64,000 nt of DNA, from positions 1,364,001 through 1,428,000 of the forward strand of contig NZ_BAABBM010000001.1 in the NCBI RefSeq assembly GCF_039537965.1. Reading direction: 5' to 3'. Below are positions 9,990-18,703 of the stretch, piece after piece. The position numbers were made by a program, and so were the translations under genes. This DNA comes from Sphingomonas limnosediminicola (lineage in GTDB: Bacteria > Pseudomonadota > Alphaproteobacteria > Sphingomonadales > Sphingomonadaceae). The number at the start of each line of letters is the position of its first letter. Position 1 is the stretch's first letter. Below the pieces are notes generated by a model. It was given only the letters and a program-made list of their open reading frames with translations. It searched no databases and had not been told where the DNA came from.

Positions 9990-10763
9990 GTGCAGGCGGT
10001 TATTCTTGCGGGGGGTCTGGGCACCCGATTGGGAGAGGAGACGTCAGTCCGTCCCAAGCCAATGGTCGAGATCGGCGGGATGCCGATCCTCTGGCACATC
10101 ATGAAAATCTTTTCGGCCCATGGCGTGAACGACTTCGTCGTCTGCCTCGGTTATAAGGGCTATATCGTGAAGGAGTTCTTCGCGAACTACTTCCTCCACA
10201 CCGCCGATGTCACGATTGACCTTCGTTACAACACAACGCAGATCCACCAAAATTGGAGCGAACCGTGGCGGATCACGCTGGTGGAAACCGGCGCTGAAAC
10301 GATGACCGGCGGCCGCCTGAAGGCGGTCAGCAAATATCTCCGCTCTGACGAACCCTTCTGTTTCACCTACGGCGACGGTGTTGCAGCAGTCGACATCTCG
10401 CGACTCATCGAATTTCACAAGGAACAGGGCCGCAAGGCAACCGTGACGGCGGTTGCGCCCCCGGGACGGTTCGGCAAGCTCGAATTCAACGGCGATGCCA
10501 AAAAGGTGAAGAGCTTCTGCGAGAAGCCAGCCGGCGATGGCGACCTCATCAACGGCGGTTTCTTCGTCCTCGATCCGTCGGTCATCGACCTGATCGATGG
10601 TCCCGATACCGTTTGGGAACAGGGGCCGCTCGAGGCATTGGCGTCGATGGGCGAGCTTTCCGCTTACCACCACGATGGCTTTTGGCAGCCGATGGATACG
10701 CTGCGCGACAAGATTCACCTCGAAGGCCTGTGGGCTGAGGGAGCTCCGTGGAAATGCTGGTGA
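9990..10763 (+). CDS. rfbF: Glucose-1-phosphate cytidylyltransferase
   Basis: It makes CDP-glucose from CTP and glucose-1-phosphate, the entry step to CDP-3,6-dideoxyhexoses. The nucleotidyltransferase signature (ILAGGLGTRLGEET, then RPKPMVEIGG) is at the extreme N-terminus, followed by the family-typical DVTIDLRYN and FCFTYGDGVA segments. The 257-residue length is normal. The GTG at 9990 is preferred because GGGAGG lies just upstream; an earlier in-frame GTG at 9972 lacks this. It begins a run of overlapping genes: rfbG starts 16 bases before this stop. The preceding ~97-base gap is AT-richer and likely holds the operon promoter. Confidence 0.93.
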   Translation: MQAVILAGGLGTRLGEETSVRPKPMVEIGGMPILWHIMKIFSAHGVNDFVVCLGYKGYIVKEFFANYFLHTADVTIDLRYNTTQIHQNWSEPWRITLVETGAETMTGGRLKAVSKYLRSDEPFCFTYGDGVAAVDISRLIEFHKEQGRKATVTAVAPPGRFGKLEFNGDAKKVKSFCEKPAGDGDLINGGFFVLDPSVIDLIDGPDTVWEQGPLEALASMGELSAYHHDGFWQPMDTLRDKIHLEGLWAEGAPWKCW

Positions 10764-11842
10764 GCCCCGCATCCTGGCAGGGCCGCCGCGTCCTCGTCAC
10801 CGGTCACACCGGGTTCAAGGGCGGCTGGCTGTCACTGTGGCTGAACCAGCTGGGCGCAGACGTGACCGGCTTCTCGTTGCCGGCGCCGACTGAGCCGAGC
10901 CTCTTCGAACAAGCGCGCCTTGGCGAACTGGTCCGCCATGTCGAAGGCGACGTCCGCGACCAAGCCGCTGTCGACGCCGTCATCCGCGACACCCGGCCCG
11001 AGATGGTCTTTCATCTCGCCGCGCAGCCGCTTGTCCGCTACTCCTACGACGCGCCCGTCGAGACATTCGGAACGAACGTCATGGGCACGGTTCACGTCCT
11101 CGAGGCTTGCCGCAAGGTGGACAGCGTCAAGGGCATCGTCTGCGTCACGAGTGACAAGTGCTACGAGAACCGCGAGTGGCTCTGGCCATATCGCGAAGCC
11201 GACCCGATGGGCGGCCACGATCCCTACAGCGCCAGCAAAGGCGCTGCCGAGCTCGTCATTTCCGCTTACCGCCGCAGCTACTTCGGGACGGGCGCACGGG
11301 TTGCATCGGTCCGCGCTGGCAATGTCATCGGCGGCGGCGATTGGGCGACCGATCGTCTATTACCGGACATCATCCGCTCACTGCTTGCGGGCCAGTCCCC
11401 GCAAATCCGAAATCCGGACTCGATCCGACCGTGGCAGCATGTGCTCGAAGCCCTGTCAGGCTATCTGATGATAGGTGAGCGGCTGCTCGCGGGTCACGAT
11501 GCATCGGCATGCGCTTGGAATTTCGGCCCGTCAGACGACGATACTCAGCCTGTCAGCTGGATCGTCGACCAGATGCTCGCGGCATGGCCGGAGCGGATTG
11601 GCTGGGAGTATCCGGAAGGCGTCCAGCCGCATGAAGCAGTCCTGCTCAAGCTGGACTCCAGTAAGGCGCGTACCGAGCTCGGTTGGCGGCCCCGCTTTCG
11701 CCTTAAGGAAGCTCTTCAGAAGATCATTGAATGGCACATCGCCGTCGCTGCTGGCGAAGACGCCCGCATGGTCAGCCTGCGCCAGCTCAGCGCATATGAA
11801 AAGTCGGGGGAGACCCTGGTGAATGAAGCGCGTGCAGCATGA
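10748..11842 (+). CDS. rfbG: CDP-glucose 4,6-dehydratase
   Basis: A 364-residue extended SDR enzyme that converts CDP-glucose to CDP-4-keto-6-deoxyglucose. It has the NAD-binding motif TGHTGFKGGW (near residue 17), the FHLAAQPLVRYSY segment and the catalytic YxxxK in DPYSASKGAAE, all characteristic of RfbG. The C-terminal WNFGPSDDD and LGWRPRFRL stretches also fit the family. It overlaps rfbF by 16 bases and its TGA overlaps the rfbH ATG, so rfbFGH are translationally coupled. A GTG at 10748 or an ATG at 10754 could start it; GGGAG before the GTG favours the former. Confidence 0.94.
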   Translation: MEMLVSPASWQGRRVLVTGHTGFKGGWLSLWLNQLGADVTGFSLPAPTEPSLFEQARLGELVRHVEGDVRDQAAVDAVIRDTRPEMVFHLAAQPLVRYSYDAPVETFGTNVMGTVHVLEACRKVDSVKGIVCVTSDKCYENREWLWPYREADPMGGHDPYSASKGAAELVISAYRRSYFGTGARVASVRAGNVIGGGDWATDRLLPDIIRSLLAGQSPQIRNPDSIRPWQHVLEALSGYLMIGERLLAGHDASACAWNFGPSDDDTQPVSWIVDQMLAAWPERIGWEYPEGVQPHEAVLLKLDSSKARTELGWRPRFRLKEALQKIIEWHIAVAAGEDARMVSLRQLSAYEKSGETLVNEARAA

Positions 11843-17401: not shown

Positions 17402-18341
17402 GAAAACGTCGGCACCGGAGATCTCAATCGTCATTCCTTGCCTCAACGAGGAGGAGAATGCGCGGGCCATCTGCGACGCGGTCATTGCGGAGGTGGAGAA
17501 GACCGGCTGCTCGTTTGAGTTGATCTTCATCGACAATTGCTCGTCCGACCAGACCGTTTCAATCATCCGCTCGATCTGCCACCGGGACGATCGCGTGAAG
17601 CTGATCGCCAACACGCGCAACTTCGGCCAGATGCGGTCGCCGACACATGGCATATACCAGGCCAAGGGCCGCGCCGTGATCAACATGTGCGCGGATTTCC
17701 AGGATCCTCCAGCCCTCATCCCTGAGTTCATCCGCCGCTGGCACGAAGGTGCGAAAATCGTTTTGGGCGTGCGCGAAACGGAGAAGTCCGGGTCAGTCCT
17801 GACTGCCTGCCGCAACGCATCTTACGCGCTGCAGCGCAAGTTCGGCGACTATCCGATCATTCCGAACGCGACCGGCTTTGGCCTTTACGACGCGAGCGTC
17901 GTTCGCGCGGTCGAGGCGCTGAATGAGCCGGAACCATTCTTCCGCGCGCTGCTGGTGGAGACCGGCTTTCCAATCGAGACCATTGCGTTCAAGCGTCCCG
18001 AACGCGCCGGCGGGAAGACCAAGAACAACTTCTTCTCGCTGCTCGACTTCGCGCTCTCCGGCCTAGCCGGATCGTCTCGCGGTCTGCTGCGCGTCCCACT
18101 CTACGTCGGCTTCGTCACCCTGAGCGTCACAGTCCTGTCGTTCGTTGGAGCGATATGGACAGCGCTGCACGGCCTCAGTCCGTTGATGTGGCTATTTGCG
18201 GGACTGCTCGAGCTCCAGTTCGGCCTGCTCTTCTTGTTCTTCGGTCTCGTCGGAGTGCAGATCCGCGCAATCTCCGACCGGACCCGGGGCACGCCGCTGG
18301 TCATCGAGCGGGAGCGCGTAAATTTCACGGAAGACGAATGA
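17394..18341 (+). CDS. GtrB/DPM1-like polyprenyl-phosphate glycosyltransferase (GT2)
   Basis: A 315-residue GT2 enzyme. The N-terminus has the ISIVIPCLNEEENA motif and the DFQDPP motif typical of polyprenol-phosphate sugar transferases. Two C-terminal membrane segments (about residues 233-255 and 265-290) match GtrB/ArnC/DPM1. It likely moves the finished sugar from CDP to undecaprenyl phosphate at the inner face of the membrane. It overlaps the SDR gene by eight bases and the gtrA-like gene by ATGA, giving the classical GtrA-GtrB pair. A third, membrane GtrC-type transferase that would attach the sugar to a glycan is not present nearby. Confidence 0.88.
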   Translation: MLKKTSAPEISIVIPCLNEEENARAICDAVIAEVEKTGCSFELIFIDNCSSDQTVSIIRSICHRDDRVKLIANTRNFGQMRSPTHGIYQAKGRAVINMCADFQDPPALIPEFIRRWHEGAKIVLGVRETEKSGSVLTACRNASYALQRKFGDYPIIPNATGFGLYDASVVRAVEALNEPEPFFRALLVETGFPIETIAFKRPERAGGKTKNNFFSLLDFALSGLAGSSRGLLRVPLYVGFVTLSVTVLSFVGAIWTALHGLSPLMWLFAGLLELQFGLLFLFFGLVGVQIRAISDRTRGTPLVIERERVNFTEDE

Positions 18342-18703
18342 AGCAGCTCTGGCGATACTACCAGGCGGGGATGGTCAATACCCTGTTCGGCTATGGCATC
18401 TATGCCGTGCTGCTCACCGTTGGCGTCTGGATGTACGCCGCGCAACTGATGGCGCACGTCCTCGGCGTTGCGTTCAATTATTTTACCTACAGCCGCCATA
18501 CCTTCGCAGAGACCCAAGCCTCGAAGCGACGGTTCGTACTTTCATACGCATTCAACTACGTGCTCGGTCTCGCCAGTCTTGCTGGAGCCTCGAGGGTGAT
18601 CGCGTCGCCTTATGTCGCCGGGATTGTCTCGATCCTTTTCGTGTCGCTCGCGAACTACTTCGTGCTGAAGAACCTGGTCTTCGTGGATAACGCGGCGCAA
18701 TAA
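18338..18703 (+). CDS. GtrA-family polyprenyl-linked sugar flippase
   Basis: A 121-residue protein with four membrane segments and the GtrA landmarks: FLxxG-type start (YYQAGMVNTLFGYGIYAVL), NYFTYSRHTF and a C-terminal NYFVLKNLVF. GtrA proteins flip polyprenyl-phosphate-linked monosaccharides to the periplasm. The ATG overlaps the TGA of the GtrB-like gene, so both are made together. It ends the CDP-sugar operon; a gene on the opposite strand begins to converge eight bases later. Confidence 0.88.
   Translation: MKQLWRYYQAGMVNTLFGYGIYAVLLTVGVWMYAAQLMAHVLGVAFNYFTYSRHTFAETQASKRRFVLSYAFNYVLGLASLAGASRVIASPYVAGIVSILFVSLANYFVLKNLVFVDNAAQ

Follow-up and report, generated by a model that had tools for sequence, protein, structure and literature searches.

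Background and the operon

Long side chains that YerE-like enzymes make are already known from erwiniose, caryophyllose and gastriose. According to the available text of PMC12247030, the thiamine diphosphate (ThDP) enzyme YpYerE uses pyruvate and CDP-4-keto-3,6-dideoxyglucose, ErwE refuses pyruvate and favours 4-hydroxy-2-oxo acids such as 4-hydroxy-2-oxopentanoate, and MMAR_2332 of Mycobacterium marinum has the same donor preference as ErwE in tests whose only acceptor was benzaldehyde. The available text of PMC5706390 gives caryophyllose as 3,6-dideoxy-4-C-(D-altro-1,3,4,5-tetrahydroxyhexyl)-D-xylo-hexose and reports that MMAR_2331, MMAR_2332 and MMAR_2333 mutants accumulate a precursor without caryophyllose. 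Here we describe a nine-gene operon in a stretch of 64,000 nucleotides from Sphingomonas limnosediminicola (NZ_BAABBM010000001.1, positions 1,364,001 to 1,428,000; the window), which probably makes a CDP-3,6-dideoxyhexose with a long side chain at C4 and delivers it to the envelope. Its novelty lies in a variant of the donor-supply kit, i.e. the genes beside the ThDP gene that would provide its keto acid.

The operon, read from the list of open reading frames (ORFs) and the sequence, consists of nine plus-strand genes at positions 9990-18703. The rfbF, rfbG and rfbH products were judged against the curated NCBIfam cut-offs of NCBI, the others against Pfam (SDR, short-chain dehydrogenase/reductase):

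9990..10763, + strand: rfbF, glucose-1-phosphate cytidylyltransferase (TIGR02623, 423 bits, cut-off 300)
10748..11842, + strand: rfbG, CDP-glucose 4,6-dehydratase (TIGR02622, 485 bits, cut-off 278)
11839..13197, + strand: rfbH, CDP-4-keto-6-deoxyglucose 3-dehydrase, E1 (NF011936 RfbH, 718 bits, cut-off 423)
13182..13946, + strand: HpcH/HpaI-type pyruvate aldolase of a distinct subfamily; predicted product, a phosphorylated 3-deoxy-2-keto sugar acid
13955..14671, + strand: HAD-superfamily phosphatase, predicted to dephosphorylate the aldol product
14649..16421, + strand: YerE-like ThDP carboligase (TPP_enzyme N, M and C), predicted to decarboxylate the keto acid and transfer the remainder to C4 of CDP-4-keto-3,6-dideoxyglucose
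16418..17401, + strand: SDR reductase, Epimerase family (PF01370, 46 bits), predicted to act on the side-chain C1' ketone
17394..18341, + strand: GtrB, polyprenyl-phosphate sugar transferase (PF00535, 85 bits; NCBIfam relatives of this type all below their cut-offs)
18338..18703, + strand: GtrA, putative flippase for the polyprenyl-linked sugar (PF04138, 45 bits, cut-off 26)

Adjacent genes overlap by 4-23 bases, the sole exception being the 8-base gap between the aldolase and HAD genes; the coordinates thus confirm the original prediction, which had all nine genes overlapping or at most eight bases apart. That all nine act on one sugar, and that this sugar is new, we infer.

The ThDP enzyme

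The ThDP enzyme had been proposed to be of the YerE type, and both the ranking of solved structures and the trees agree. Its nearest solved structure is JanthE (PDB 8rph, 8rpi and 8rpj): 8rph is the top PDB match at 290 bits, whereas the highest-scoring acetolactate synthase reaches 218, and a 14-sequence profile of the enzyme gives 560 and 351 bits, respectively. Joining it to three acetolactate synthases was rejected in the approximately unbiased test (p-AU 1e-45; IQ-TREE, 34 proteins). These three had been confirmed by NCBIfam, and the PRK08199-type protein that is the other ThDP match of the same genome (27% identical; row OUTL002, labelled as an acetolactate synthase in the FastTree tree) was excluded. 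In the NCBIfam scan of the window, those of the 25 listed models that describe acetolactate synthases score far below their cut-offs. Scores, structure ranking and tree test together rule out an IlvB identity, the result that the original prediction had named as fatal to it. The sequence supports a YerE-like carboligase, predicted to transfer an acyl unit to an isolated ketone. According to the available text of PMC12188165, JanthE accepts 4-hydroxy-2-oxovalerate among other donors, with benzaldehyde, and carries a CDG motif, where the window enzyme has GDG.

In both FastTree (134 proteins) and IQ-TREE (34 proteins) the enzyme lies in a fully supported clade nested among caryophyllose-type enzymes, and it is 51% identical to the M. 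marinum-type enzyme. The clade comprises 22 rows in FastTree, 21 of which have the HAD type of the window; the exception, L104, is a short contig. Concerning its distribution, the gene is found in 2 of 71 genomes of the genus (E 1e-100), so the module is patchy. In a profile search of 398 genomes of the phylum, 21 places score at least 558 bits, five (L199-L203) score 367-436 and the remaining listed places score at most 361; the three of these last that were checked exceed acetolactate synthase cut-offs. Searches with the ThDP proteins against plasmids gave no match.

Aldolase and HAD phosphatase

Neither the aldolase nor the HAD protein of the window has a Pfam match of its own; PF03328 is present in most of 120 listed aldolase homologues. 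The aldolase is predicted to fold as an HpcH/HpaI-type TIM barrel (predicted local distance difference test, pLDDT, 91), and the model groups with the phosphoenolpyruvate (PEP)/pyruvate barrels HpaI, GarL and YfaU, and also with SbnG and pyruvate kinase. The fold alone does not name the reaction, because many pyruvate kinases match at equal Z; in the sequence profile, HpcH/HpaI aldolases and YfaU come out on top. Two residues of aldolase motifs, the Glu of ET and the Asp of GxxD, are invariant and correspond, by sequence only, to the metal-binding pair; a KIGGCEA motif is likewise invariant within the family. The HAD protein has the DxD nucleophile, S/T, K and acidic motif IV, and its predicted fold (pLDDT 93) is that of a HAD, with matches to phosphoglycolate-phosphatase-type members. 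Both predicted folds fit the proposed roles. In Sphingomonas immobilis, whose genome has no detected aldolase, the HAD and ThDP proteins are fused in frame (L043:9212-11734, 841 residues without a stop), a natural fusion which ties the phosphatase and ThDP steps together.

Distribution of the donor-supply genes

Across 296 genomes of the order, including that of the window, the ThDP gene is present in 14 (E 1e-60) and the aldolase in 12 (E 1e-3; one of these is a weak match of 82 residues), and the two lie within 8 kb of each other in 11. The three ThDP genomes without the aldolase hold a NeuB-family synthase and a HAD_2 phosphatase (by profiles in all three, by Pfam in one).

The same alternation is seen more widely. 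In a named-locus scan of the best 80 of at least 563 confirmed relatives, the aldolase is found at 54 loci and NeuB at seven, never both. The window-type HAD, as a separate gene, is found at 18 loci and a dehydroquinate-synthase-like (DHQS-like) gene at 41, again never both; a second SDR (SDR2) accompanies the latter gene at 39 of its 41 loci. The aldolase accompanies 15 of the 18 unfused HAD genes, and rfbH and an SDR of the window profile are present at 66 and 68 of the 80 loci. We extended the count to 128 loci (the 80-locus scan, Mycobacterium and further loci of the phylum; duplicates L026, L027 and L029 left out), scoring kit genes up to 8 kb away from the ThDP gene: aldolase 72, NeuB 24, both none; any HAD or IMPase phosphatase 42, DHQS-like gene 43, both two. 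This tally scores L050 as lacking a HAD gene, which is in fact present, hidden by a longer overlapping ORF. The exclusion between HAD and DHQS-like genes has a Fisher p of 1.3e-7 over the 128 loci, with kinship ignored. Among Mycobacterium genomes, 14 of 248 contain the ThDP gene, and their kits are aldolase with DHQS-like gene, NeuB, or NeuB with HAD. Between the sister enzymes of L030 and L033 the condensing enzyme is swapped and the phosphatase retained, and in independent pairs the traits never change in the same direction. We read these patterns as two interchangeable routes to a 3-deoxy-2-keto acid phosphate and two routes by which the phosphate is lost.

The gene arrangement of the window is also conserved. 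Nineteen HAD loci of relatives were compared (one of them fused), and in 14 the recognised genes stand in the order aldolase, HAD, ThDP, SDR; rfbF-rfbG-rfbH lie ahead of them in 10 of the 14. This is the recurrence in other species for which the original prediction had suggested looking, and it is more than chance.

Comparison with pathways of known sugars

Matching kits are present in two species whose sugar is known. The first is M. marinum. IlvB1_3 of M. marinum M, which we take to be MMAR_2332, and the ThDP protein of locus L136 share 99% identity; the neighbours of the latter are rfbF, a GtrB-like gene, an aldolase, SDR2 and a DHQS-like gene. MMAR_2331 is taken to be the aldolase solely from the adjacency of the genes. 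The window and this pathway share rfbFGH, a ThDP enzyme of the same clade and a GtrB-like transferase, and the two HpcH-type aldolases belong to one family (33% identical over 191 residues). The difference concerns the phosphate: the M. marinum-type locus has the DHQS-like gene with SDR2, whereas the window has the HAD phosphatase in that place. The side chain of caryophyllose is a 1,3,4,5-tetrahydroxyhexyl group, so C2' is CH2, where the methyl of pyruvate would land, and the chain terminates in CH3, as would be expected after elimination of the phosphate and reduction; for the window a CH2OH end is predicted instead.

No DHQS-like gene or SDR2 is found among the nine operon genes, and no DHQS-like gene at the 18 HAD loci. 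A DHQS search of the own genome gave no match, not even the expected housekeeping AroB, and is hence uninformative; a NeuB search of five genomes, also without a match, is as little informative. A DHQS-like protein of Methylomonas aligns well with real dehydroquinate synthases (136 bits). Such enzymes might stop before ring closure, with the phosphate eliminated; an open-chain intermediate is known from archaea. Pairs of a DHQS-like gene and an adh_short SDR occur in YerE-like clusters of Methylomonas, cyanobacteria, Acidobacteria, Actinobacteria and M. marinum (L059:3990-5751, L087:8066-9998, L092:11470-13553, L136:6548-8313 and other loci). The pair may explain the methyl end of caryophyllose.

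The second species is Pectobacterium atrosepticum, in which a small contig of genome G766 is identical (100%) to plasmid CP036162.1 over the 15 kb compared. The gene order at the ThDP locus of this species is rfbFGH, HpcH aldolase, ThDP, SDR, acetaldehyde dehydrogenase and DmpG-type (4-hydroxy-2-oxovalerate) aldolase, and the ThDP gene is presumably ErwE. The acetaldehyde dehydrogenase and the DmpG-type aldolase would yield 4-hydroxy-2-oxopentanoate, so the kit matches the donor preference of ErwE. This locus (L179:7820-13300) thus holds two aldolases, of the HpcH and DmpG types, besides the acetaldehyde dehydrogenase. It resembles the window in having rfbFGH, a YerE-like ThDP enzyme, an SDR and an aldolase able to supply a 4-hydroxy-2-keto acid. 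It differs in its acetaldehyde dehydrogenase, its DmpG-type and another HpcH aldolase, and in having no phosphatase among the genes examined; its ThDP enzyme is a long branch, distant from that of the window. The side chain of erwiniose is shorter.

Yersiniose synthesis shares rfbFGH, the ThDP carboligase and the SDR reductase with the window. Its loci are represented here by stand-ins only, the basal YerE-like group L199-L203, which was recognised by its rfb neighbours and lies outside the clade of the window. The rfb trio is complete at four of the five loci (L201 lacks rfbG) and no kit gene is present, as expected because the donor would be pyruvate. Three of the five are flanked by 5 kb or more on each side; 10 neighbouring ORFs were scanned, none of which is an aldolase, NeuB or HAD gene and three of which have no Pfam match. 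A search for kit-less YerE in 324 genomes of the Pectobacterium family gave no match at 1e-90, a threshold that is probably too strict. In the window, aldolase and HAD genes lie inside the operon itself.

The original prediction, which had suggested a longer or differently made side chain, gains support from the relatives, from the kits of the two species of known sugar and from the donor preferences of ErwE and MMAR_2332 (PMC12247030, available text).

Proposed pathway

In the pathway that we consider probable, RfbF, RfbG and RfbH, with a reductase from elsewhere, would form CDP-4-keto-3,6-dideoxyglucose by the established chemistry of their families. From pyruvate and an aldehyde bearing a phosphate, the aldolase would form a 3-deoxy-2-keto sugar acid phosphate, which the HAD phosphatase would dephosphorylate to leave a CH2OH end. 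The ThDP enzyme would then decarboxylate the acid and add the acyl unit to the C4 ketone, creating a tertiary alcohol, and the SDR would reduce the new ketone at C1'. Finally, GtrB would transfer the sugar to polyprenyl phosphate and GtrA would flip it for glycosylation in the periplasm. Every reaction beyond RfbFGH, as well as the end and the length of the side chain, is a prediction. The predicted product is a CDP-3,6-dideoxy-4-C-(1,3,4,...-polyhydroxyalkyl)hexose with the side chain CHOH(C1')-CH2-CHOH-...-CH2OH, deoxy at C2' because C2' derives from the pyruvate methyl.

Since the clade of the window is nested among caryophyllose-type enzymes, erythrose 4-phosphate is the likeliest aldehyde. 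The leading candidate for the product, put forward tentatively, is therefore caryophyllose with CH2OH in place of CH3; glyceraldehyde 3-phosphate, which would give a C5 side chain, comes next. It is possible, rather than probable, that the operon makes this end-hydroxylated caryophyllose, an undescribed 12-carbon 3,6-dideoxy-4-C-(1,3,4,5,6-pentahydroxyhexyl)hexose, and that the kits form a readable code, in which condensing enzyme and phosphate-removing step predict the side chain: the choice of aldolase or NeuB would set its length, a phosphatase would give CH2OH, and a DHQS-like elimination without ring closure, followed by an SDR, would give CH3. If the reading of the kits is true, the side chains of these uncommon surface sugars could be predicted from gene content alone, and for caryophyllose there would be a concrete side-chain route that can be tested; a literature search, mostly at the level of titles and the beginnings of abstracts, found no description of that route. 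The kits would then also supply enzymes that form quaternary carbons bearing long polyol arms, a difficult task for chemical synthesis.

Several observations weigh against this pathway. RfbH (E1) normally depends on a partner reductase, RfbI/E3, and no RfbI-type (E3) reductase is found among the nine operon genes. FAD_binding_6 and NAD_binding_1 have one match each in the genome, both in a single ORF of 357 residues about 1.36 Mb away, which by these two Pfam domains is the sole genomic candidate; we take it to resemble PaaE/PaaK. Thus, of the original proposal that rfbFGH provide the CDP-4-keto sugar, the gene identities hold, all exceeding their NCBIfam cut-offs, but the trio alone is an incomplete route without an E3-type reductase. 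Also, the KIGGCEA motif of the aldolase seems unlike HpaI, whose catalysis involves Arg and His, and its catalysis may differ too. The tree contains few switches (at least seven between aldolase and NeuB over 75 rows, at least five between phosphatase and DHQS over 64 rows), and sign tests on the independent pairs, which have low power, do not reach significance (median p 0.125 and 0.25). Many of the loci counted had also served to build the hidden Markov model profiles, and the relatives are not independent, both of which weaken the counts. Both condensing enzymes are absent from 19 of the best 80 loci, in some cases owing to contig ends; among 88 higher-scoring loci flanked by 5 kb or more on each side, 14 still lack the aldolase and NeuB, including P. 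atrosepticum, which has another aldolase pair. Four relatives (L042, L043, L047 and L053) have HAD and ThDP genes with no aldolase detected genome-wide; either, therefore, some pathways can do without the aldolase or they take an acid phosphate from housekeeping metabolism, and these relatives may draw on 3-deoxy-D-arabino-heptulosonate 7-phosphate (DAHP) or 2-keto-3-deoxy-6-phosphogluconate (KDPG).

Alternative explanations

The same four relatives lend themselves to an explanation in which the HAD phosphatase acts on housekeeping KDPG, DAHP or 3-deoxy-D-manno-octulosonate 8-phosphate (KDO-8-P), with a side chain of C5, C6 or C7 accordingly, and in which the role of the aldolase is to produce a stereoisomer or to adjust the supply. 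The capsule locus downstream of the operon would suit it as well, since it encodes two Capsule_synth proteins, which we assume to be makers of a Kdo linker. We consider it unlikely all the same: the aldolase is kept at 15 of the 18 unfused HAD loci and never occurs with NeuB, the behaviour to be expected of an important condensing enzyme.

A plain yersiniose-type pathway, in which acetaldehyde from pyruvate is added while the aldolase and phosphatase belong to the synthesis of a different sugar in the same polymer, would account for the resemblance of rfbFGH, ThDP and SDR genes to the yersiniose set and would agree with the substrates of YpYerE (PMC12247030, available text). It leaves unexplained why aldolase and HAD genes stand between rfbH and the ThDP gene in an order kept at 14 of the 19 HAD loci, and why a HAD-ThDP fusion exists; moreover, the window enzyme falls outside the basal kit-less group and its 51% identical homologue uses hydroxylated keto acids as donors. 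These points make it improbable. Little likelihood attaches also to the view that the aldolase-family protein, instead of making the donor, works after the ThDP enzyme as some PEP/pyruvate barrel superfamily lyase, hydrolase or synthase, given the first ranks of HpcH/HpaI aldolases and YfaU in its profile, its exclusion with NeuB, itself a condensing enzyme, and the Pfam-clear aldolases in the P. atrosepticum cluster. Bradyrhizose, considered because the host is an alphaproteobacterium, was rejected: the available text of the cluster paper (PMC4743980) names a dTDP-glucose dehydratase, and the words 'acetolactate', 'aldolase' and 'rfb' do not appear in its main text.

Surroundings of the operon

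A capsule-type locus lies downstream (20393-41834 of the window), with ABC-2 transporter proteins, glycosyltransferases, methyltransferases, a GDP-mannose dehydratase, the two Capsule_synth proteins and Poly_export, as well as a Wzz-like protein below the cut-off; its ORF at 20393-21661 we read from the sequence as presumably mannose-1-phosphate guanylyltransferase-like. A Poly_export gene is found between the SDR and GtrB genes at 11 of the 19 HAD loci. With such neighbours, the sugar is probably a component of the envelope or capsule.

The rfbF gene starts with GTG, with GGAGGG just upstream. The gene of a PrsW-family protease lies 97 bases ahead of the operon, and a minus-strand ORF lies directly downstream of its end. 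A scan of the sequence found three promoter-like sites (2.4 in shuffles) and 11 terminator-like sites (7.6 in shuffles). A protein of 520 residues (4115-5677), rich in Ala, Ser and Asn and built of short repeated units, has no Pfam match above the cut-off; it adjoins a 1045-residue protein without a Pfam match, a CHAT-domain protein and the PrsW protease. On the minus strand, the protein encoded at 41972-43348 contains FG-GAP and RTX calcium-binding repeats.

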